Virus record (IMG/VR): IMGVR_UViG_3300017743_000117
Coordinates: 1-24,249 of that record
Length of the DNA: 24,249 bases
Source: a virus
Reading direction: 5' to 3' (one strand)
The notes beneath the pieces were generated by a model. It had not been told where the DNA came from, searched no databases, and was given only the letters and a program-made list of their open reading frames with translations. This document shows, piece by piece, positions 3,052-18,084 of the stretch. A program made the translations under genes and the position numbers. Numbering within the stretch: position 1 is the first letter of the stretch; each line of letters begins with the position of its first letter.

Positions 3052-3714
3052 ATGAAAAACATTTTATTTTCACTGCTCTTGTTGGCTAGCGACACTTCAC
3101 ACGCTGAAGTTCGAAACTTGAGCAGCAGTTTAGTTCATGAAGATGCAGAAGAGGGACTAAGACTGGCATTTGAGTCTTCTGTGCAATTAGTGTCGATATC
3201 GGAGAAGGGCACGGCGTTTGGATCGGGCAACTTGTTCACATATAACGGTGAACAGTACATCATCACAGCAAACCATGTAGTTGCTGGATCATTATTTCTA
3301 GATATTCTAGAGAAAGATGGTAACGTAGCAAATGGGATTGTATTTTTAACAAATCCAGATCTTGACTTGGCAATAATAAAGCCAGTTACAAGATTGACTG
3401 GGACAACTGCAGTAGAATTCGAATTCGCAAACGACAACAAACTAGGCAAAGAGGTATTCCATTGTGGGCATCCGTTAGGTGTTAGTTTTAATTTGTCAAA
3501 AGGAATGATCACAACGTATGAACCAACAGGTTATATCATCAATTCTCTTTCATTGCCGGGAACTTCAGGATCTGTTGTTTTCGATAAATACGGAAAAGTA
3601 GTAGGTGTTATCGTTTCAGTAGCAGGGATGGGAGAGCCGCCTAATGCTCAGTTGATAGAGGGTATCGTTAAGGTGATTCCTATTGATTTAAAGTATATTA
3701 TAGACTCGATGTAA
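3052..3714 (+). CDS. Secreted trypsin/HtrA-like serine protease
   Basis: The 220-residue protein has a typical signal peptide (MKN, hydrophobic IFSLLLLAS-type core, cleavage probably after SHA at residue 18). A chymotrypsin-fold protease domain follows. The triad is readable: H75 in ITANHVV, D105 in NPDLDLAIIK, and S172 in LPGTSGSVVF. No PDZ domain follows, so it is a minimal HtrA/trypsin-like enzyme that should act in the periplasm or outside the cell. It is preceded by the hairpin at 3022-3039, which may control translation, and followed 11 bases later by a small unknown gene. Exported proteases are uncommon in phage genomes; roles in lysis, surface modification or superinfection control are all possible. 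The fold call is firm, the biological role open. Confidence 0.88.
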   Translation: MKNILFSLLLLASDTSHAEVRNLSSSLVHEDAEEGLRLAFESSVQLVSISEKGTAFGSGNLFTYNGEQYIITANHVVAGSLFLDILEKDGNVANGIVFLTNPDLDLAIIKPVTRLTGTTAVEFEFANDNKLGKEVFHCGHPLGVSFNLSKGMITTYEPTGYIINSLSLPGTSGSVVFDKYGKVVGVIVSVAGMGEPPNAQLIEGIVKVIPIDLKYIIDSM

Positions 3715-4081: not shown

Positions 4082-4480
4082 ATGAACATATTAAAAGAAG
4101 GGGATACGACGACATCCGCAAAAGCGTTTTTTTATAAAGAAGGTAGAGTTTTATTAGTAAAACCAACAGGTAGCGAAGATAGATATGATATTCCCGGTGG
4201 CAAAATTAAATTCTGTGAATCTCCCATGCAAGGAGTTTACAGAGAATGTTTAGAAGAGGTTGGACTTAAAATAAAAAAGGCTAAATTCATAGGAAAAGAC
4301 ACAGATAGAGACAAGGTTTACTTCTTTGTTACTAAATGGAATGGAGATATAGTCTTGCAAGAAGAAGAATTGGAAAAGTATCGATGGGTTCCCATAGATA
4401 GGGTGCTAGATTATTACCTCACAAAGACTGCTCATAACGGTTTTGTAGACTACTTACTTAATGAACTCGGAGGGGTATAA
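4082..4480 (+). CDS. Nudix hydrolase
   Basis: The 132-residue protein carries a complete Nudix box, GX5EX7REUXEEXGU: G40, E46, R54-E55, E58-E59 and G61, in the order GGKIKFCE ... YRECLEEVGL. Nudix enzymes hydrolyse nucleoside diphosphates linked to another group, such as oxidised dNTPs, NAD, ADP-ribose, sugar nucleotides or RNA caps. The length is typical of a single-domain MutT-like enzyme, with no extension revealing the substrate. A strong AGGAGG lies just before the ATG. The next gene begins two bases after its stop, and that gene's ribosome-binding site lies inside the last codons of this one. Confidence 0.93.
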   Translation: MNILKEGDTTTSAKAFFYKEGRVLLVKPTGSEDRYDIPGGKIKFCESPMQGVYRECLEEVGLKIKKAKFIGKDTDRDKVYFFVTKWNGDIVLQEEELEKYRWVPIDRVLDYYLTKTAHNGFVDYLLNELGGV

Positions 4481-4834: not shown

Positions 4835-5743
4835 ATGTCCATAAAAGTAAAATTAAATAGAATAAAAAAAGCAGTAGTAGGGCTAATCTGTCCTCCTGCA
4901 ACACAAGATTTAGCACTCAACACAAAGAACAGAGACGCTACAATCAAAAAATATAATTACGGCCCACTAAATGTTGATGAGCCGGCAGATTATTGGAAAA
5001 AGATTGCAAAATATTGGAAAACTTCTGAAGAGGCAGCCAAAAAATCTGTATGTGGAAACTGTGTGGCGTTTGATATTTCGCCTAGAATGAAAGATTGTCT
5101 TCCCGGTGACACATTTGATGAAGATGGCGAATTAGGGTATTGCTGGATGCATCATTTTAAGTGTCACAGTGCCAGAGCATGCCATACTTGGGCTAAAGGC
5201 GGGCCGATTGCAAAAGACTCTGAGTCTAAAGAGTGGCAAGAAAAGAATAAAAGCAGTTTAGATGAGAAACTTAACCCTTCAATGGGGGCTGGTGCCTATG
5301 TGAAAGACTTTTATAAGTCTGACGCTCCTCAGTTTAAAGGTAAATCCAAAAAAGAGAGAAGAGAAATGGCTGTTGCGGCATACCTAGACGCCAAAGAAGA
5401 AGTAAAAGAAGGCAAAGATCCTAAAGTTGGCACTGGAAAAAAGCCAAAAGGCTCTGGAAGAAGACTTTATACCGACGAAAACCCAGACGATACAGTTTCT
5501 GTAAAGTTTGCGACGGTTCAAGACATCAAAGATACTCTCTCTAAATCAAGTTTTAAGTCCAAATCTCACAAAAGACAGTCTCAGGTTATCAACCTGATAC
5601 ACCAAAGATCTAGAGCGGCTTACAAAAACGCCAAAGATCCAAAAGTTAAGGCTAGATTGAAGAAAGCATATGAATATGCAGAGAAGCGAAAGGAAGCATC
5701 GAAGAAAAAAACTCAAAGAATGAACAAGGAGAAGAAGAAATGA
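4835..5743 (+). CDS. Basic modular protein with Cys/His cluster
   Basis: The 302-residue, strongly basic protein has three readable parts. A Cys/His cluster at residues 73-116 (C73, C76, C88, C103, H106, H107, C110, C116; CGNCVAF ... GYCWMHHFKC ... CHTWAKGGP) looks like a zinc or Fe-S site. A conserved-looking segment follows at about 150-190 (YKSDAPQFKGKSKKERREMA, then AAYLDAKEE), of a type I associate with T4-like marine phages but cannot name. The C-terminal 120 residues are Lys/Arg/Ser-rich and helical, suggesting nucleic-acid binding. The stop overlaps the next start (ATGA). A virion-internal or DNA-binding role is inferred. Confidence 0.85.
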   Translation: MSIKVKLNRIKKAVVGLICPPATQDLALNTKNRDATIKKYNYGPLNVDEPADYWKKIAKYWKTSEEAAKKSVCGNCVAFDISPRMKDCLPGDTFDEDGELGYCWMHHFKCHSARACHTWAKGGPIAKDSESKEWQEKNKSSLDEKLNPSMGAGAYVKDFYKSDAPQFKGKSKKERREMAVAAYLDAKEEVKEGKDPKVGTGKKPKGSGRRLYTDENPDDTVSVKFATVQDIKDTLSKSSFKSKSHKRQSQVINLIHQRSRAAYKNAKDPKVKARLKKAYEYAEKRKEASKKKTQRMNKEKKK

Positions 5744-7366: not shown

Positions 7367-9271
7367 ATGAACGACAACAAAAATAAAGTGATCAGAGAGG
7401 AATTTGCTCGTGCAATGATGATCAAGAAGGCTCAATCTGTTTTAAGTGAGTCTGCATTTCGCGGTTTTATCGCTGAGATGAGAAAATATGAAGAAAATGC
7501 GATTATTACTGAAAATATGTCCTCAGAAAACATATATGATGGCTTCAAGAGGCAACTTCAAGAGCAAACTTCTGAAGGAGAGATTGTTGCCAACGAATAT
7601 GGTGAAGGTGAAGGGAATGTAACTGCTGATGCTGTCAAAAAGCCCCCTACAGGTGGTGGCGGTGATGATGGCAAAGGAGATAAAGGCGGCGACAAGAAAT
7701 CTGATGAGGTTAAGAAATTTATGGATAGATTATCTGCAGATTCCAAGGCTAAATTAAAAGCGTTAAGAATATCGGATCCTGTTAAAGCAGCAAAATACAT
7801 TATGAAAAATCCAGATCAGTTTGAGCCAAATGAAGAAATGGAAGCAGATGCTTTTGTTCGTTCTGAGACTGCTAAAGTTACAGGTAAAGATCCCGGAAGT
7901 TCTTTCGATGCACCTGAAGAGCCTACCGGTGATGTGAAGAAAGATACTCAAAATCTTGGTAAAGAACTTGAAAGCCCAAAAGCAAAAGGCATTTTGTCTT
8001 CTATCTTTGATTCATACAAGTTTGCATTCGCATCAAATGCGAAAATGTGGGAAAAAATTTATGATTTCATTAATGGGATCGGAAATAAGCCTCCTGCTCA
8101 GCAAGCACAGGCTGCGCAACAAGCAAAAGATGACTTAGATAAAAACGTAGACACAGATGAAGAAGCAGGTAGAACCGCTGAAGATCCAGATGGTGATGAA
8201 GATGGTGATGAAGAAGGCGGAGGAGATGAATCTGTCAATGTACGCAAAGGAAAGAGTAGTCTTCAATCTAGAATTTCTAAATTATTTCCAGATCTCGCAA
8301 AAGCAAGAGGTACATATTATTACAGAAAAACGGACAAACAGGGTGATCAAGGAAAAATCATTTCTAAAAACACCAGTGCTTTGGCTGCTATCTTAGGAGA
8401 CATCGAGGCTCAGTTGAAAGGTTCAGGCATTGCTATATCAGAATCACTGAGAGCGGAGTTGGTTGATACTGTCGGGACATTGTTTGCGCTGCAAACAGAC
8501 GGAATTTTGATGGAGCGTAACGAATATGCAAAATTTAAAACAAATCTTCAAGTTGCCCTACAGAGAGTAACCAGAATGCACGAAGATCCTAAGAAGAAGA
8601 GAAAGGCAATTCAAAAATTCTTATATAGATTAAAAAGATATGCCCAAGATGGAGACTTTAGTCAAATGGCAGGGAAGAAAGAGTATCAAGGTAGAACTGA
8701 AGTTCCTGACAAACGTGGTAAAACTCAACCAGTTAATACACCAATTGCAAAATTAGGACAATTGTATTCTGAAATGAGTCCTGAAGATCAAGAAAAGGCT
8801 AAGGCAAAGGCTATTGACTACGCAAACAACCAGATCAATCAGCAAGAAAAAAGAGATGATCCAAATAATCCAGAGTTCAAGGCAACCACTCTTGGCAATG
8901 CTAGAAAAGATGCTCCAACTAAAACCAGACATCAGATGGCTCAGCAAGTTCCAAAGATTAAAAATGGTGTATTAAATATTGCTCAAATCGTTGGGCCGAA
9001 ACTTAAGGCTGCTGGGTATGATCTTAAATCACCCGAAGGACAAAAAGTACAACAAAGGCTCTTAAAAGTGCTTCGACGATTCTTGAAGAAAGATCTAGAA
9101 AGACTAGGACTGTCAAGCAAAGTTAAACTTTTGGCTATGTTTTCCAAATCAAAGAAAAAAGGCAAAAAAGGCAAAATGAACGAGTCAATGGAAATGTTGG
9201 AAGAATCATATTTAGATTTCTTCTCAAATTATATGCTAGAAGGTATAATCGATGAATTGTCAAATCAATAA
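7367..9271 (+). CDS. Large helical, probably virion-associated protein
   Basis: The start at 7367 is preferred because GAGGG lies 7 bases upstream; an in-frame ATG at 7316 would add 17 residues but has only weak purines before it. The 634-residue protein begins with a charged helix (NKVIREEFARAMMIKKAQ) followed by VLSESAF and FIAEM, which contain L/I-x-E triplets like T4 prohead-protease sites. A Gly/Asp/Lys low-complexity linker (about residues 93-110) and an acidic Glu/Asp linker (about 265-285) separate helical domains. The C-terminus is a basic segment and then LEESYLDFFSNYMLEGII. It overlaps the next gene by 20 bases. No enzyme motif is visible. An internal or scaffold-like head protein is a reasonable guess. 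Confidence 0.83.
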   Translation: MNDNKNKVIREEFARAMMIKKAQSVLSESAFRGFIAEMRKYEENAIITENMSSENIYDGFKRQLQEQTSEGEIVANEYGEGEGNVTADAVKKPPTGGGGDDGKGDKGGDKKSDEVKKFMDRLSADSKAKLKALRISDPVKAAKYIMKNPDQFEPNEEMEADAFVRSETAKVTGKDPGSSFDAPEEPTGDVKKDTQNLGKELESPKAKGILSSIFDSYKFAFASNAKMWEKIYDFINGIGNKPPAQQAQAAQQAKDDLDKNVDTDEEAGRTAEDPDGDEDGDEEGGGDESVNVRKGKSSLQSRISKLFPDLAKARGTYYYRKTDKQGDQGKIISKNTSALAAILGDIEAQLKGSGIAISESLRAELVDTVGTLFALQTDGILMERNEYAKFKTNLQVALQRVTRMHEDPKKKRKAIQKFLYRLKRYAQDGDFSQMAGKKEYQGRTEVPDKRGKTQPVNTPIAKLGQLYSEMSPEDQEKAKAKAIDYANNQINQQEKRDDPNNPEFKATTLGNARKDAPTKTRHQMAQQVPKIKNGVLNIAQIVGPKLKAAGYDLKSPEGQKVQQRLLKVLRRFLKKDLERLGLSSKVKLLAMFSKSKKKGKKGKMNESMEMLEESYLDFFSNYMLEGIIDELSNQ

Positions 9272-10322
9272 CAACTCAAATATGAACGTGCAGGATTTAA
9301 ATCCTCTTATTAGTGATTTGGCTTCTGCTGTTCAACAGAAAGTTGGGTTCAAGTCCATGCCCAATATCACCCTTCAGGATGACGAGGATAACGCTGACGC
9401 CATTCTAGGTAAGACAGCCTACTATGATCCCCAAAACAAAGCAGTGACTGTCTACGTGACGAATAGGCATCCTAAAGACATACTTAGATCTATTGCTCAT
9501 GAGTTGATCCACCACGGACAAAATCTCAGAGGTGAATTCGATAAGATTGGGGCTGTTGGTGAAGGGTATGCACAGAATGATGAACATTTAAGAAATATGG
9601 AAAAAGAAGCCTATTTACAAGGTAATATGTGCTTCCGAGATTGGGAAGACGGACATAAAAGACAAATGATGGAATCTATTCATCGACAAAATTCATTTAA
9701 AAGGAGAAACAATACAATGAAAAAATATAAAAGCGATAAAAATAATGAACTTAATAAATTGTTGATGGAAAAGTTCAATCTTGGAAATAACACTCTGAAT
9801 GAAGCACACTGTAGTGGAAACAGAGACGATGAAGAAAAAGAAGAAACTATGGAAGAAGCCCACTGTATGGGACAAGGTAACAGAGGTGATAAGCCATGCC
9901 CTGAGTGTGGTAAGAAGAACTGTCCCGGAAAAGACGGTGACAAAAAAATTGATGAAGCACATTGTGCTGGAAATCGTGATGATGACAGTGATGATAAGAA
10001 GGAAGGCAAAAAAGATGAAGAACAATTATATCGATATAAGAATGGTAAAATTGTACCTGTTTCTAAAGAGTTTATGGCTGGAAGAAAAGTAAGAAAGAAG
10101 GTAATGAAACTTCTTGGACTAGATGAATCAATAGACTCTCTCGATGAAGAACTAGAAAATCCTGAAAAGGCTGATCTGGATAAAGATGGTGAACTTTCTG
10201 GATATGAAAAGAAAAGAGGAAAGGCTATTGAAAAGTCCATGAAGGATCAAGATAAAAAGAAAAACGAATCTTATCGTAGACAAGTTCGTAAAATGATGGA
10301 AGAAATTCTAAAACTAAAATAA
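9252..10322 (+). CDS. Zincin-like metallopeptidase joined to EF-hand Lys-rich protein
   Basis: The 356-residue product starts inside the previous gene, with AGAAGG upstream. Residues 1-150 form a small zinc-peptidase domain: HELIHH (H83, E84, H87) and a downstream EKEAYLQG with E119 as the likely third ligand. The second half, from M156, is different. It has three copies of an EAHC-x-G-(x)-NR motif (around 184-191, 202-211, 235-242), a CPECGKKNCPG cluster, and a textbook EF-hand loop at 308-319 (D308, D310, D312, G313, L315, S316, E319). It ends in YRRQVRKMMEEILKLK. A strong ribosome-binding site precedes the in-frame ATG for M156, so two products, or a recent fusion of two genes, are likely. 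Confidence 0.85.
   Translation: MNCQINNNSNMNVQDLNPLISDLASAVQQKVGFKSMPNITLQDDEDNADAILGKTAYYDPQNKAVTVYVTNRHPKDILRSIAHELIHHGQNLRGEFDKIGAVGEGYAQNDEHLRNMEKEAYLQGNMCFRDWEDGHKRQMMESIHRQNSFKRRNNTMKKYKSDKNNELNKLLMEKFNLGNNTLNEAHCSGNRDDEEKEETMEEAHCMGQGNRGDKPCPECGKKNCPGKDGDKKIDEAHCAGNRDDDSDDKKEGKKDEEQLYRYKNGKIVPVSKEFMAGRKVRKKVMKLLGLDESIDSLDEELENPEKADLDKDGELSGYEKKRGKAIEKSMKDQDKKKNESYRRQVRKMMEEILKLK
9702..9719 (+). promoter_or_regulatory. Internal ribosome-binding site and in-frame start (M156)
   Basis: AAAAGGAGA followed by about 10 bases and ATG at 9717 sits in frame inside the 9252 gene, exactly where the protease-like half gives way to the Lys/Cys/EF-hand half. The segment is translated F-K-R-R-N-N-T-M. 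The purine run and ATG are as good as those before the separate genes of this window. An independently translated C-terminal protein of about 201 residues (MKKYKSDKNNELNKLLMEKF...) is therefore likely. Confidence 0.6.
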
Positions 10323-10332
10323 GGAATATAAT

Positions 10333-13023
10333 ATGATCAGACAATTATTGATGGAAGGCCCGGTTGGGCATATGTGGCATCCATTTGATCTGGACAGTGT
10401 TCAGAACGGTAAAGACTTGTTGGAGTTTTTTGTCGGAAAAGAAGGTAAACCCGGACTTCCAGAGCAATATATAAACGAGTTCACGCCCTCCATCAAGATT
10501 GATGGTATCAATGGGCCGATCAGACTAGTTGTTAATAACTCTGGTGATAAAGAGTTTGCTATTGATAGAATGTCTAGGGCTTCTATTGATGTTGAAGGTG
10601 TCACTGCGGATAGACTCAAAGAGAGATTCGAGAAGGCTGTTTTGCAAGCACTAGACACCGATGAAGTGTTGGAGATTCCTCTTCACAAATTGGTTGCAAT
10701 GGGCATTCCAATGGACAAACTAAATATTGGAACTAACCTAACAATCATTCACAGAAAGAAGAAAAAGCCTGTAATCATAAAGAGGATCACATCTGGACAT
10801 GGTTTTGTAAACGATGGGACTGTAGCCCTTACTGTCCTGAACAATGCTCTGAGTTCCAAGCCACAAGAAATGGAAACAGTTTTAAGAATATTAGATATGT
10901 GGAATAATCCCAATGTATGTCTTAACAACGATATTGTACATGAATCTTCAAAGCCTGATGGACAGGTTGGTTCTGTTAAATATGGAGAAGACTTCATTGC
11001 TTTTCATGGGTTAAACGAAATATACAACCCTGAAGGAAAGACTACAAGAAAAACAAGAGAAATCAGTATCAATGATCAACAAAAGGCTGCATTGAATGAG
11101 TTGGTGAAGATTATCAACGAGACTAATACCGTAGAAGGCTTTAGGGCGCTCTCACCCTTTGATACAGTGGCTATGAAAGGTGAGGTGGACATTGACTATA
11201 CTGGAGTCTTAGGAACGATTATAGAGATAAAATTGGACTCACAAACGTCTACATCGCAAGCGTTGTCTGCTTGGCTAGGTGACTCAAATATTGTGAAGCC
11301 ATCATATTCATCTAGATACACATTTTCTGACGGTAAGGTGAGATCTAGTTTTAGTAAAGCAAATTATATAGCATTGATACCTGATCAAGGAGAACAGCAG
11401 TACTCTATCAGAGAACTTCTCAGCGAAGAGACTCATCCAGATTTAGATGATGACATGTATTACGATTTTGCATCTGGAGCAATATTCTACCATGCAACAA
11501 GACTATTAGGAAGAGCGGTTCTACAGACTCTAGTCAATAAATCAAAAGTAGGAAATGAGGCTTTAACTAGCCATGAAGGTATTGTGATGCGTTCGAAAGA
11601 CTTATTTGGTATTGACAAGCCAATAAAAATTACTGGTGATTTTATCAGAGATGGAATGGGTAGCAACCTTGCTTTGGCTATGGCTAAAAAACCTGAAGCA
11701 GTAAATGAATCAACCGAACTACAAGATTCAGTAGAAGGTGAATTAGGTGATGAACCAGAAGAGCAAACAGTGGTAACTACCACAGGAACTAGAACAGTTG
11801 CTGTCATGCCCGGCTCTTTCAAGCCTCCACATAGAGGGCACTTATTGATGGCAGAGCATCTTTCAGGAATTGCAGATGAGGTTTTGATTTTTATATCTGC
11901 TCCAAAAGGCTCTAAAAGATTATTACCTTTCTCTGGTACCGAAATTACATACGAGAAAGCCATTGAACTTTGGAATCTTTTATTGAAAGGGGCATCTGGT
12001 AATATTAAAGTTGTGGAATCTTCTAGTCCCAGTTCTTCTCCTATAATGGCATTGGCTGAATTAATGAAACCTGCAGAGGAAAGACAAAATTACCAAGATG
12101 TCGATTTCTATGCTGAAGAATATTCTAAATTTTATTTATCAATGTCAGAGAAAGAAAAAAATGACTCTGGATCTATGAGAAGATTTTCATTTTATGAAGA
12201 AATGGAAAATGTAGAAATAAAATTAGTACCTGCGTTTGGGCATGATCCCGAATATGCACAATCTATTGCTCAATTGATTTCTACTTCTTCTGATATTATC
12301 GAAAGAATATCGGACGATGTTCAAGCAAAAGCACTAGAACTTGCCAAAGGGCTTGTCTCAGCAAGAGGGCAAAAAAGATTACCTGCTAACCCATCTGTTC
12401 AAGATTACATTTCTGTATTATCAAAAGCAAATCAAATGAAAGTTGCAAAGTTTATGAAGTCTACTCCAAGTGGGTTAGATAAAAACAACTTTAGTGCTAC
12501 TGATCTTAGACTTCTTTTGGATTTGAAAAAAGTTTATAACCTCCCAGTAGATTCACTTCTCAAAGACTTCGTAGGGCAAAACCTTGAAGATTATCTTCGT
12601 ATTATTTTTGGCTCTGGAGAAGTGAGAGAATCAATAACCGTTATTCAAGATATGGTTAGATTGATCTTAGCAGAGCAATTAGATGAAACTTCCACTATGG
12701 CTAGTGGAGCCGTTTCTGGGCATATGGGCGGATCTAAACCTGAACCGAATAGAGACGAGGATGAAGATGACGTTAGCGAGGCAAAATACCACCCTTCCGA
12801 ACTTCCACAGCAGCCCGGTTTATCAACTATGACTGTCAGAGTTATTCCAAGTAGCAGACATAAGTCCGATGGAATTAGCGATGCAGGATACAAAAAAAGT
12901 AACAGCAACAGATTTAAAATTGATAGTTCATATACTAACAAACGAGCCCCCTATTATGATAAGGACGATATTATAACCGATTTGGTTGAAAAAGTCCTAC
13001 ATAATATTATACGTTCGAACTAA
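10333..13023 (+). CDS. KxDG ligase-like domain fused to HxGH nucleotidyltransferase
   Basis: The 896-residue protein begins MIRQLLMEGP, a short peptide with an L-x-E|G-like site. Residues 50-440 carry covalent-nucleotidyltransferase (RNA/DNA ligase-type) motifs: motif I SIKIDG (K55, D57, G58) with R64 downstream, HGLNEI-type motif III (about 225-232), EGIVMRS as motif IV (E415-S421) and KPIKITGDF as motif V (K429, K432). After an acidic linker comes a second catalytic domain of the nicotinate/cytidylyl type: VMPGSFKPPHRGH with HxGH at H500-H503, and SATDLR (721-726) as the usual C-terminal (S-x-T-x-x-R) motif. The tail is disordered, then helical. It may join or cap nucleic acid and make a nucleotide cofactor; substrates cannot be read from sequence. 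Confidence 0.82.
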   Translation: MIRQLLMEGPVGHMWHPFDLDSVQNGKDLLEFFVGKEGKPGLPEQYINEFTPSIKIDGINGPIRLVVNNSGDKEFAIDRMSRASIDVEGVTADRLKERFEKAVLQALDTDEVLEIPLHKLVAMGIPMDKLNIGTNLTIIHRKKKKPVIIKRITSGHGFVNDGTVALTVLNNALSSKPQEMETVLRILDMWNNPNVCLNNDIVHESSKPDGQVGSVKYGEDFIAFHGLNEIYNPEGKTTRKTREISINDQQKAALNELVKIINETNTVEGFRALSPFDTVAMKGEVDIDYTGVLGTIIEIKLDSQTSTSQALSAWLGDSNIVKPSYSSRYTFSDGKVRSSFSKANYIALIPDQGEQQYSIRELLSEETHPDLDDDMYYDFASGAIFYHATRLLGRAVLQTLVNKSKVGNEALTSHEGIVMRSKDLFGIDKPIKITGDFIRDGMGSNLALAMAKKPEAVNESTELQDSVEGELGDEPEEQTVVTTTGTRTVAVMPGSFKPPHRGHLLMAEHLSGIADEVLIFISAPKGSKRLLPFSGTEITYEKAIELWNLLLKGASGNIKVVESSSPSSSPIMALAELMKPAEERQNYQDVDFYAEEYSKFYLSMSEKEKNDSGSMRRFSFYEEMENVEIKLVPAFGHDPEYAQSIAQLISTSSDIIERISDDVQAKALELAKGLVSARGQKRLPANPSVQDYISVLSKANQMKVAKFMKSTPSGLDKNNFSATDLRLLLDLKKVYNLPVDSLLKDFVGQNLEDYLRIIFGSGEVRESITVIQDMVRLILAEQLDETSTMASGAVSGHMGGSKPEPNRDEDEDDVSEAKYHPSELPQQPGLSTMTVRVIPSSRHKSDGISDAGYKKSNSNRFKIDSSYTNKRAPYYDKDDIITDLVEKVLHNIIRSN

Positions 13024-14645: not shown

Positions 14646-15611
14646 ATGATTAACAATATAGGTTATGCATGTATCAACATGCAACTCAATGATCCAAAAA
14701 ACTATGGATCAAATCCAAAAGCGGAGCGTGTAACTACAAACCGTGCAATGATCAAGAGGACATTTAAGGCAAAAGGTATGGAATACGCTGGACAACTGGC
14801 ATTACAAAACTGTCGTGATCTTCTATCAATTCTCAAATGGAATAAAGCAAACGGTTTCGATTTCTTTCGATTATCGTCTAATTTGTTTCCTTGGGCATCT
14901 GAGTATAACATTGAGGATCTACCTCAATTTGATCTTATCGAGCAGGCACTATTTGACTGTGGACTATTTATTGAGGATAACGGTATGCGAGTTACATCCC
15001 ATCCCGGCCCGTTCAATAAGTTGACTTCTCCTAATGAGCAAGTTATTCTCAACACTATTAAAGATCTTGAGAATCATGGTAAGGTATTTGATCTACTATG
15101 CTTAGAACGTTCTCCATATGCCAAACTCAACATTCATGTTGGTGCACACTATAATAATCGAAAGATGGCATTGGACAACTTCTGTAAAAATTTTGAGCGA
15201 TTATCTGAAAGTGTGCGTTCTAGACTAACGGTGGAAAACGATGACAAAGCAACATTATACTCAACAAAGGAACTTTACGACGAAGTTTATACACGTATCG
15301 GTACTCCTATTGTGCATGACTACCATCACCACGGCTTCTGCACTGGAGGCTTATCGCAGGAAGAGGCAGTTAAGTTAGCGGCTTCAACGTGGAGTGATAT
15401 CGTCCCTGTGGTTCACTATTCTGAATCAAGACGTGATGAGTTTTGTGACAATTCTATAAAACCTCAAGCGCATTCTGACTTTATTTATCGTAAGATAGAT
15501 ACTTACGGTGTTTTACTTGACGTTATGGTTGAGGCAAAAATGAAAGAACTTACCGTTCTAAAATACTTGGAGTTACATGGTGAAGAAACAGAATCAAAAA
15601 TTGTGGCTTAA
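14646..15611 (+). CDS. uvdE: UV-damage endonuclease (UvdE/UVDE family)
   Basis: The 321-residue protein spans the whole UVDE family (TIM-barrel, metal-dependent). Signature blocks appear in order: IGYACINMQL at the N-terminus, FFRLSSNLFPWASEY (about 75-90), SHPGPFNKLTSPNE (about 118-131), AKLNIHVGAHYNNRKMALD (about 159-177), SRLTVENDDKATLYS (about 192-206) and IVHDYHHHG (about 221-229). These supply the His, Glu and Asp metal ligands of the barrel. The enzyme nicks DNA 5' of UV photoproducts and abasic sites, an alternative to T4 endonuclease V. It would protect phage DNA in sunlit water. It has its own ECF-like promoter at 14588 and overlaps the next small frame by 35 bases. Confidence 0.95.
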   Translation: MINNIGYACINMQLNDPKNYGSNPKAERVTTNRAMIKRTFKAKGMEYAGQLALQNCRDLLSILKWNKANGFDFFRLSSNLFPWASEYNIEDLPQFDLIEQALFDCGLFIEDNGMRVTSHPGPFNKLTSPNEQVILNTIKDLENHGKVFDLLCLERSPYAKLNIHVGAHYNNRKMALDNFCKNFERLSESVRSRLTVENDDKATLYSTKELYDEVYTRIGTPIVHDYHHHGFCTGGLSQEEAVKLAASTWSDIVPVVHYSESRRDEFCDNSIKPQAHSDFIYRKIDTYGVLLDVMVEAKMKELTVLKYLELHGEETESKIVA

Positions 15612-17057: not shown

Positions 17058-17133
17058 GCACTCGTGGCTTAATGGATAAAGCAACTGCCTTCTAAGCAGT
17101 CGATTGCTGGTTCGAGTCCAGCCGAGTGTACCA
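17058..17133 (+). tRNA. tRNA-Arg (anticodon TCT)
   Basis: A full cloverleaf can be drawn. The acceptor GCACTCG pairs with CGAGTGT (17123-17129; the first pair is G-U). The D-arm is GCTT/AAGC with an AATGGATA loop, the anticodon arm ACTGC/GCAGT with loop CTTCTAA (anticodon TCT at 17091-17093), the variable region CGATT, and the T-arm GCTGG/CCAGC with loop TTCGAGT. Discriminator A is followed by an encoded CCA (17131-17133). It reads AGA, the arginine codon used very often in this AT-rich phage, so codon-use compensation is the likely role. The ECF-like element at 17019 lies directly upstream. Confidence 0.95.
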
Positions 17134-17146
17134 CTGAGGAATGATA

Positions 17147-17668
17147 ATGGAAGAAAAGACAATAGACGAAATGATTCAAACATTTATTGACAATGGGTTA
17201 GATTTATCTAGTTTTAAATTTATGAGTGATTATGATAAAGAAAACTTTTTTATGATGTACACTGATCTGTTTGAATCTATGATGAAAGATGACGATGACT
17301 ATAACTTCAAAATAACTGAAGAGAAAGATTTGTTCATAACTTTAAATCAAGAAGAAATGTTTATATATGTCACAGATGATTATCAGACTTTAAGGTGTGA
17401 TTTGTGTGGCGAATATTATGACAAAAATAATACAAATCAAATTTTATTATTATCTATTCTTTTTCTTACTGTAAAAGAATTAAAAGCGATGATAGATTTA
17501 TTCGCTGGAGAAATAATAAAAAATATGGAAAACAGAAAGTCTGGAAAGTTTACTAAACTGCCAAAATCTTTCTCAGGTAAAGCAAATTATCTATCCTCCA
17601 AACAGGAAAGTATAATGGAAGACATCAAAAAAGCAAGAGATAAGGTAACTATAAAGGAGATAAAATGA
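17147..17668 (+). CDS. Unknown acidic/helical protein with single CxxC
   Basis: ATG 17147 is preferred over ATG 17141 because GAGGA ends directly against 17141 but is 6 bases from 17147. The 173-residue protein has an acidic N-terminal half (MEEKTIDEMIQTFIDNGL, a YDKENFFMMYTDLFE helix), one CDLCGEYY motif near residue 89, a hydrophobic segment (ILLLSILFLTVKELKAMI, about 104-121) and a basic C-terminus. The hydrophobic stretch could be a buried helix or a single membrane segment. It follows the tRNA by 13 bases and may be co-transcribed with it. Its stop overlaps the next start (ATGA). No family recognised. Confidence 0.72.
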   Translation: MEEKTIDEMIQTFIDNGLDLSSFKFMSDYDKENFFMMYTDLFESMMKDDDDYNFKITEEKDLFITLNQEEMFIYVTDDYQTLRCDLCGEYYDKNNTNQILLLSILFLTVKELKAMIDLFAGEIIKNMENRKSGKFTKLPKSFSGKANYLSSKQESIMEDIKKARDKVTIKEIK

Positions 17669-18084
17669 TGACTGTAATGGTATCTGGTGGGTTTGATCCC
17701 ATACATGGAGGACATGTTCAAATGATTCGCGATGCAGCAAATCACGGTGACGTGATAGTGGTTGCAAATTCAGATGAATGGCTCATGAGGAAGAAAGGGT
17801 ATGTATTTATGTCCTTTGAAGAGCGAGCAAAAATTCTTAGAGAAATCAAAGGTGTAATTTTGGTTGCAGCGGTAGACGATTCAGACGATACTGTATGTAA
17901 TGCAATCCGAATGATTCGCCCTGATTACTTTGCCAATGGCGGAGATAGAGGTAAGTCTAATACTCCAGAGCAAGATGTTTGCGAAGAACTGGGAATTAAA
18001 ATGCTGTGGGGAATAGGAGGAGATTACAAATTCAATTCTTCTTCAGATTTGGCAAAAAAGTTGGTAAAAAATTACCCTCAATAG
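17665..18084 (+). CDS. TagD/RfaE-like nucleotidyltransferase
   Basis: The 139-residue protein is a minimal cytidylyltransferase-fold enzyme. It starts MMTVMVSGGFDPIHGGHVQM with the HxGH motif H14-H17 (HGGH). Then come VVANSDEWLMRKKGY, FMSFEERAKIL, RPDYFANGGDR and a C-terminal FNSSSDLAKK in the position of the family's S-S-T motif. These are the hallmarks of TagD (glycerol-3-phosphate cytidylyltransferase), the HldE/RfaE C-terminal domain and phage homologues, which form CDP- or ADP-linked sugars or alcohols. The exact substrate is not readable. AAAGGAG lies upstream. The gene is followed by a strong terminator at 18167. It could act with the phosphomannomutase and glycosyltransferase of this window. 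Confidence 0.9.
   Translation: MMTVMVSGGFDPIHGGHVQMIRDAANHGDVIVVANSDEWLMRKKGYVFMSFEERAKILREIKGVILVAAVDDSDDTVCNAIRMIRPDYFANGGDRGKSNTPEQDVCEELGIKMLWGIGGDYKFNSSSDLAKKLVKNYPQ

Follow-up and report, generated by a model that had tools for sequence, protein, structure and literature searches.

In the available parts of three reviews (PMC9503650, PMC7824862 and PMC5512222), enzymes of the HIGH type are described as joined to a Nudix or a kinase domain, and ligases as working with end-healing enzymes or with RlaP. NadM is the enzyme fused to Nudix, and NadR the one fused to a kinase. Several unlike enzyme domains can share one chain in the phage polyvalent proteins (PMC5512222, in the part available), and in T4 the internal head proteins and Alt carry a capsid targeting sequence, a short leader that gp21 removes at (L/I)xE before a small residue. 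Here we describe a widespread family in which a ligase-type domain, LIG, is paired with an HxGH domain, HIGH; we found no description of a ligase-HIGH pair in the literature searched, including the available parts of the three reviews. The window, by which we mean the whole 24,249-base virus record that was analysed, contains an ORF (10333-13023, + strand, 896 codons plus stop) that combines two nucleotide-handling domains, LIG (residues ~9-441) and HIGH (~484-745), in a single chain. Its carrier is an uncultivated T4-like phage.

LIG has in common with T4 Rnl1 (PF09511) and Rnl2/TbREL1 (PF09414) a core fold, as predicted by modelling, together with the acid of motif III, the EG of motif IV and the Lys of motif V. 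It differs from the two T4 enzymes in giving no significant sequence match to them, in having no C-terminal domain and in having one Lys in motif V, and it has in addition a GGxxGHMxHPFD signature and a near-obligate HIGH partner. HIGH shares HxGH, SxTxxR, Pfam CTP_transf_like and, judged from the model of a relative (L063), the fold with NadM/NadD/NadR and PPAT. It departs from these enzymes in a K...R signature between the motifs, in that its partner, fused or adjacent, is a ligase-type domain and not Nudix or a kinase, and in that the search for NadV was negative in 14 of 15 records. As in the T4 head proteins, there is a short leader that ends in (L/I)xE before a small residue, and a gp21-type S77 prohead protease (PF03420) is encoded in 13 of 20 records tested, including that of Microcystis phage Mel-JY01; in the HIGH-LIG chains, however, the site separates two enzymes. 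Polyvalent proteins likewise unite several unlike enzyme domains with a zincin as neighbour or module, whereas the available part of PMC5512222 makes no mention of a LIG-HIGH pair and the pairing here is fixed. Mel-JY01 is the sole cultured carrier that we found. Its protein WWT39297.1 (639 residues, 'cytidylyltransferase like protein') has the same two domains, HIGH first and LIG second, and the same junction, IIAE↓GG (the arrow marks the putative cut). It matches the LIG profile at E 2.8e-66, being itself a row of that profile, but it is annotated for the HIGH part only, and its LIG is about 20% identical to the compact members.

Motifs and predicted folds of the two domains

A reading of the window made from its letters only (the sequence-only reading) had proposed two domains in one 896-residue chain, and the fold model and the Pfam and PDB profile matches bore this out. 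The fusion is real in the window and is one of several arrangements, which include neighbouring genes and the reverse order. The residues singled out in that reading, K55, E415, K432, HRGH 500-503 and SATDLR 721-726, stand at those positions (Table 1), and the first three are invariant in 29 of 29 representatives; K429, offered as a further motif V residue, is Lys in just 10 of the 29. Our analysis added motif Ia (R79), motif III (D200), GGxxGHMxHPFD, K607...R617 and the family-wide pairing. Between the window and its close relatives dN/dS is about 0.06-0.09 for LIG and 0.10-0.21 for HIGH, which indicates purifying selection on both domains; for the C-terminal tail (746-896) it is about 0.2-0.26 within the window subclade.

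Table 1. Features of the LIG-HIGH gene and of two further genes in the window
Feature	Position	Strand	Remarks
Leader MIRQLLME, residues 1-8	10333-10356	+	Ends (L/I)xE before G9; candidate leader for removal by prohead protease
LIG domain, residues 9-441	10357-11655	+	Predicted ligase-type covalent nucleotidyltransferase; AF2 model, VIA rows, invariant motifs
GHMWHPFD, residues 12-19	10366-10389	+	LIG signature, upstream of motif I
Motif I KIDGIN, residues 55-60	10495-10512	+	K55 is the predicted nucleotidylated lysine
Motif Ia-like DRMS, residues 78-81	10564-10575	+	R79 conservation; TbREL1-like spacing
Inserted beta domain, residues ~98-155	10624-10797	+	Tudor/GreA-like matches
Motif III-like N198-x-D200	10924-10932	+	NxE in most relatives; hhalign register
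Motif IV EGIV, residues 415-418	11575-11586	+	E415 and G416 in 29/29
Motif V KITG, residues 432-435	11626-11637	+	One Lys, no KxK
LIG/HIGH linker, residues 442-483	11656-11781	+	Confidence of LIG model low from 442 onward
HIGH domain, residues 484-745	11782-12567	+	HxGH adenylyltransferase-type; Pfam CTP_transf_like and PDB profile matches
GSFKPPHRGH, residues 494-503 (HRGH 500-503)	11812-11841	+	Conserved among 85 HIGH domains
K607...R617	12151-12183	+	HIGH-family signature; 85 HIGH domains
SATDLR, residues 721-726	12493-12510	+	SxTxxR motif; alignment
C-terminal tail, residues 746-896	12568-13020	+	Alignable within window subclade
HExxH zincin-like protein (HELIHHGQN)	9252-10322	+	Homologue in 39 loci, often adjoining LIG
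Nudix gene	4082-4480	+	Pfam NUDIX 8.8e-16

Conservation in LIG was assessed in 29 divergent representatives clustered at 60% identity, among them the cultured Mel-JY01 and the huge phage LR756500, and the motif residues are kept in these divergent homologues. Besides K55, E415 and K432, all 29 have D57, G58, G416, G435, H13, H16, P17, Y217 and H225; M14 and N60 are each present in 28 and D19 in 25, and position 79 is Arg in 27 and Lys in two. Position 200, the acid of motif III, holds Glu in 27 and Asp in two of the 29 (D200 in the window), and the place of a second motif V lysine (T434) is taken by Thr or Ser in every representative, KxK being absent. The superfamily features observed are the KxDG lysine of motif I, the acid of motif III and the Glu-Gly of motif IV. 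In TbREL1, the trypanosome RNA editing ligase, K87, N92 and R111 bind the ribose of ATP, and their spacing (+5, +24) is that of K55, N60 and R79 in LIG (PMC4599027). In hhalign alignments that are not significant as a whole, motif III of LIG falls on NFEYV of T4 Rnl1 and GEFAG of Rnl2. The comparison of the LIG profile with the Rnl1 and Rnl2 profiles gave no significant match and is underpowered, because the control of Rnl1 against Rnl2 itself scored just 11%.

Profile searches divided the chain: the HIGH half matched CTP_transf_like and PDB profiles, whereas LIG returned no match above the cut-off in Pfam, PHROGs, NCBIfam or the PDB. Its matches below the cut-off are weak ones to RNA ligases (phrog_548, E 0.007; PF09414, E 0.024); PF09414 was reached by two of 21 LIG members at E up to 1, with 0.024 the best value, and PF09511 by none. 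Several LIG proteins stop about 10-25 residues past KITG, and a C-terminal domain of the T4 Rnl type is absent after motif V; without the C-terminal/OB domain of known ligases, LIG may therefore not join polynucleotides.

Residues 1-460 were modelled with AlphaFold2 at a mean pLDDT of 82. A Foldseek search with the LIG model gave nothing below E 0.05, the best ligase standing at 0.11. In a second look with VIA the 14 best rows were all RNA ligases (Z 8.2-6.6 over 174-221 residues), led by T4 Rnl1 (Z 8.2 over 193 residues), so that the ligase-type fold proposed around K55 is indeed predicted. For the model of the relative L063, the first ligase match in Foldseek was again T4 Rnl1 (E 0.011), ranked beneath the matches of that protein's HIGH domain. 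Support from modelling for a nucleotidyltransferase fold is thus moderate, Foldseek alone being weak, and we regard the RNA-ligase-like fold of LIG as well supported but not proven. The insert at 98-155 is confined to the window subclade and L010 and is a gap in the other alignment rows. Tudor and GreA rows in the VIA output concern this insert only and were rejected for LIG as a whole.

The window's HIGH domain scores 20.8 bits against Pfam CTP_transf_like, just below the 21-bit cut-off, and its relatives score 26-35 bits; the HxGH site is also backed by an NCBIfam match. Across 85 HIGH domains P493, G494, F496, P498 and H503 are conserved at 95-96% (H503 at 96%), K607 at 98% and R617 at 100%. 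In profile searches of the PDB, HIGH matched PPAT and NadM/NMNAT entries. The predicted HIGH-type nucleotide-binding fold is assigned through the model of L063, whose HIGH domain matched NadM/NadD in Foldseek (E 1.6e-4) and PPAT/NadM in VIA (Z 9-10.7). Judged by these models, the fold is about as close to NMNAT as to PPAT, and we take the SxTxxR motif to favour an NMNAT-like enzyme. A Pfam search found no Nudix domain in the LIG-HIGH chain. Elsewhere in the window (17665-18084) lies a second, short HxGH gene of the heptose 1-phosphate adenylyltransferase type (phrog_7878), separate from the LIG-HIGH protein.

Distribution and pairing of LIG and HIGH

No Pfam or PHROGs family matches LIG, which is widespread in uncultivated phages. 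Scanning with the full protein found 11 viral loci, and scanning with a LIG-only alignment found 29 loci and then at least 551 matching stretches in IMG/VR, a figure that is not a number of distinct phages because IMG/VR contains near-copies; the best 80 of these matches were used. In GTDB genomes, 109 pattern matches to LIG yielded no confirmed case. Two metagenomic huge-phage genomes likewise encode LIG, and in BFVD the predicted structures of relatives are labelled, for example, 'cytidyltransferase-like' or 'SET domain-containing' protein.

HIGH lies in the same ORF or within 3 kb for 94 of 98 distinct LIG proteins, which are not independent and form 35 clusters at 70% identity. The arrangement is HIGH-LIG in 48 chains and LIG-HIGH, as in the window, in 16, while 30 have a separate HIGH gene within 3 kb; 24 of the latter are within 100 bases of LIG, two of these on the opposite strand. 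Among the four LIG proteins without HIGH, two are cut by contig ends. As background, three HIGH ORFs occur in 464 kb lying more than 3 kb from LIG. The pairing was not selected for, since most loci were fetched with LIG-only alignments. One alignment (A4), in which stand-alone HIGH rows were misaligned onto LIG, was kept out of the modelling. A tree of 93 LIG domains shows about 10 changes of arrangement; the pair has therefore been repeatedly fused and split, and yet has stayed together.

The dependence appears to run one way. In 15 phage records HIGH is present in 14 and LIG in three; in each of the three HIGH is fused to LIG or lies about 1.5 kb from it, and it seems from this distribution that LIG needs HIGH while HIGH does not need LIG; we therefore infer that HIGH makes something that LIG uses. 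Because they stand side by side in very many phages, the two domains probably cooperate in one undescribed reaction. The sequence-only reading had suggested that one domain makes NAD-like or CDP-like nucleotides with which the other joins or caps nucleic acid. The functional link in that suggestion is strengthened by the near-universal pairing; the choice of nucleotide is not, as the HIGH fold accommodates either enzyme type.

The junction before LIG and the neighbouring genes

The site of the T4 prohead protease prefers Leu or Ile. T4-type prohead proteases cut after Glu, and the leaders of T4 head proteins are 10-20 residues long (PMC5694885). Just before GGxxGHM, 29 of 35 LIG clusters have (L/I/V)xE↓G(G/P/A), five start with MGG and one has LLLS↓GG, and a junction of the (L/I)xE↓GG type precedes LIG in all architectures. 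The MIRQLLME↓G start of the window protein, which had been read as a hint of packaging, thus belongs to a family-wide pattern. Such sites are enriched two- to threefold near the start (residues 1-17) of other genes on these contigs. Given the conserved junction and the gp21-type proteases of many of these phages (none was found in the window's sister contig L001, an 83-kb fragment), LIG is probably processed in the head, and the same evidence suggests that it is probably packaged there. A general location of LIG beside head genes was rejected, as its distance from the terminase gene varies by contig, from about 2.6-8 kb in L065, L070 and Mel-JY01 to tens of kb in L001, L087 and L110.

Some HIGH-LIG chains have SET, cupredoxin, zincin or DUF-repeat modules inserted between the two domains, and these bring further xxE↓G junctions. 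Examples are SET inserts (L102:6411-8729 and L107:2142-5276), a plastocyanin/azurin-like insert (L096:5454-9095) and a LETM1-related one (L065:6303-9038). Chains with inserted modules reach 1317 residues and, with their recurring junctions, are polyprotein-like. A module beginning DPKxGTGKKPKGSGRRLYTDENP occurs in a separate gene of the window (4835-5743) and as a HIGH/LIG insert in L094, L096, L103 and L107.

The zincin-like gene directly upstream may be a possible third member of the set. The Nudix gene, which had been proposed to act on the same nucleotides, turned out to be weakly linked: it persists throughout the window's subclade (contigs of L001, L002, L003 and L010), with a weak match in the contig of L011 and none in five other records tested, and it was rejected as a core member. 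Canonical RNA ligases were found in few of the contigs, and absence from a fragment carries little weight. The window also encodes a trypsin-like protease with an apparent signal peptide (3052-3714; Pfam Trypsin_2, 9.8e-18), a UvdE-type UV endonuclease (14646-15611; Pfam 8.9e-54) and a tRNA-Arg (TCT) gene (17058-17133).

Candidate reactions

The reading that we prefer, which we hold tentatively as plausible and somewhat short of probable, is a head-carried two-enzyme unit in which LIG and its partner HIGH are coupled through A-pp-X; both domains, their intact catalytic motifs, the pairing with its asymmetry and the junction come from computation, whereas its substrates, the coupling, the packaging and the role in infection are what we infer. 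HIGH would condense ATP with a small 5'-phosphate, pX, to A(5')pp(5')X, perhaps NAD-like, with NMN as the leading candidate for pX. LIG would then draw AMP from A-pp-X to charge K55 and next a 5'-phosphate; alternatively, A-pp-X could supply the pX that LIG joins to the end of a nucleic acid. The prohead protease would mature LIG at (L/I)xE↓GG, and LIG carried in the head would therefore act early after injection, possibly on RNA ends cut by host defences. A more specific version, in which a head-carried two-step pathway has the LIG-like enzyme attach pX to RNA or DNA ends as a previously unknown phage-made tag or cap, we consider improbable. A literature search for dinucleotide donors of RNA ligase found none. 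Counted against this reading are the modest fold match of LIG, the lack of a significant hhalign match to Rnl1 or Rnl2, the single motif V Lys, the end of LIG soon after that motif, the negative protease search in the fragment L001, and the inserted modules, the last of which would fit loose co-packaging. Plain NAD salvage is disfavoured, because NadV, the usual phage partner of NadM (available part of PMC9503650), is present in one of the 15 records, several of which are fragments in which absence is weak evidence.

The main rival, possible but rather unlikely in our judgement, is that the two domains are independent head-borne effectors, an adenylyltransferase that restores NAD and a ligase that repairs RNA, delivered as early counter-defence cargo with no shared substrate. 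The unrelated modules and repeated xxE↓G junctions of some HIGH-LIG chains would suit such a cargo; polyvalent proteins, which combine dissimilar domains, are recognised as cargo of phages (PMC5512222), and both the restoring of NAD and the repair of RNA are among the described ways in which phages counter host defences (PMC9503650), each in the part of the source available. The other modules are sporadic, however, whereas HIGH is nearly always there; LIG is hardly ever seen without HIGH, although HIGH is seen without LIG, and an NAD-restoring role sits poorly with records that lack NadV.

It is unlikely that LIG is instead an NAD+-dependent enzyme that takes AMP from NAD+ and releases NMN, from which HIGH and ATP would remake NAD+. 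The nearest HIGH folds do include NadM/NadD, and binding of the nicotinamide part could fall to the invariant GHMxHPFD that precedes motif I, but LigA-type domains are absent, the nearest LIG folds are ATP-dependent RNA ligases, and the cycle costs one ATP with no clear gain over using ATP directly. Least probable of all is that LIG, a core domain without nucleic-acid-binding parts, modifies proteins or caps RNA rather than joining strands, as the lack of a domain past motif V and the lone lysine of that motif would allow, since the spacing of K55, N60 and R79 is that of the RNA editing ligases (PMC4599027).

We return, then, to the coupled pair. The fixed association of LIG with HIGH points to a shared reaction, and its occurrence in the cultured Mel-JY01 makes virion proteomics possible. 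If the coupling is true, it would link the making of NAD-type nucleotides with chemistry at the ends of nucleic acids; in the parts available, the reviews treat these two arms of the conflict between phage and host separately.
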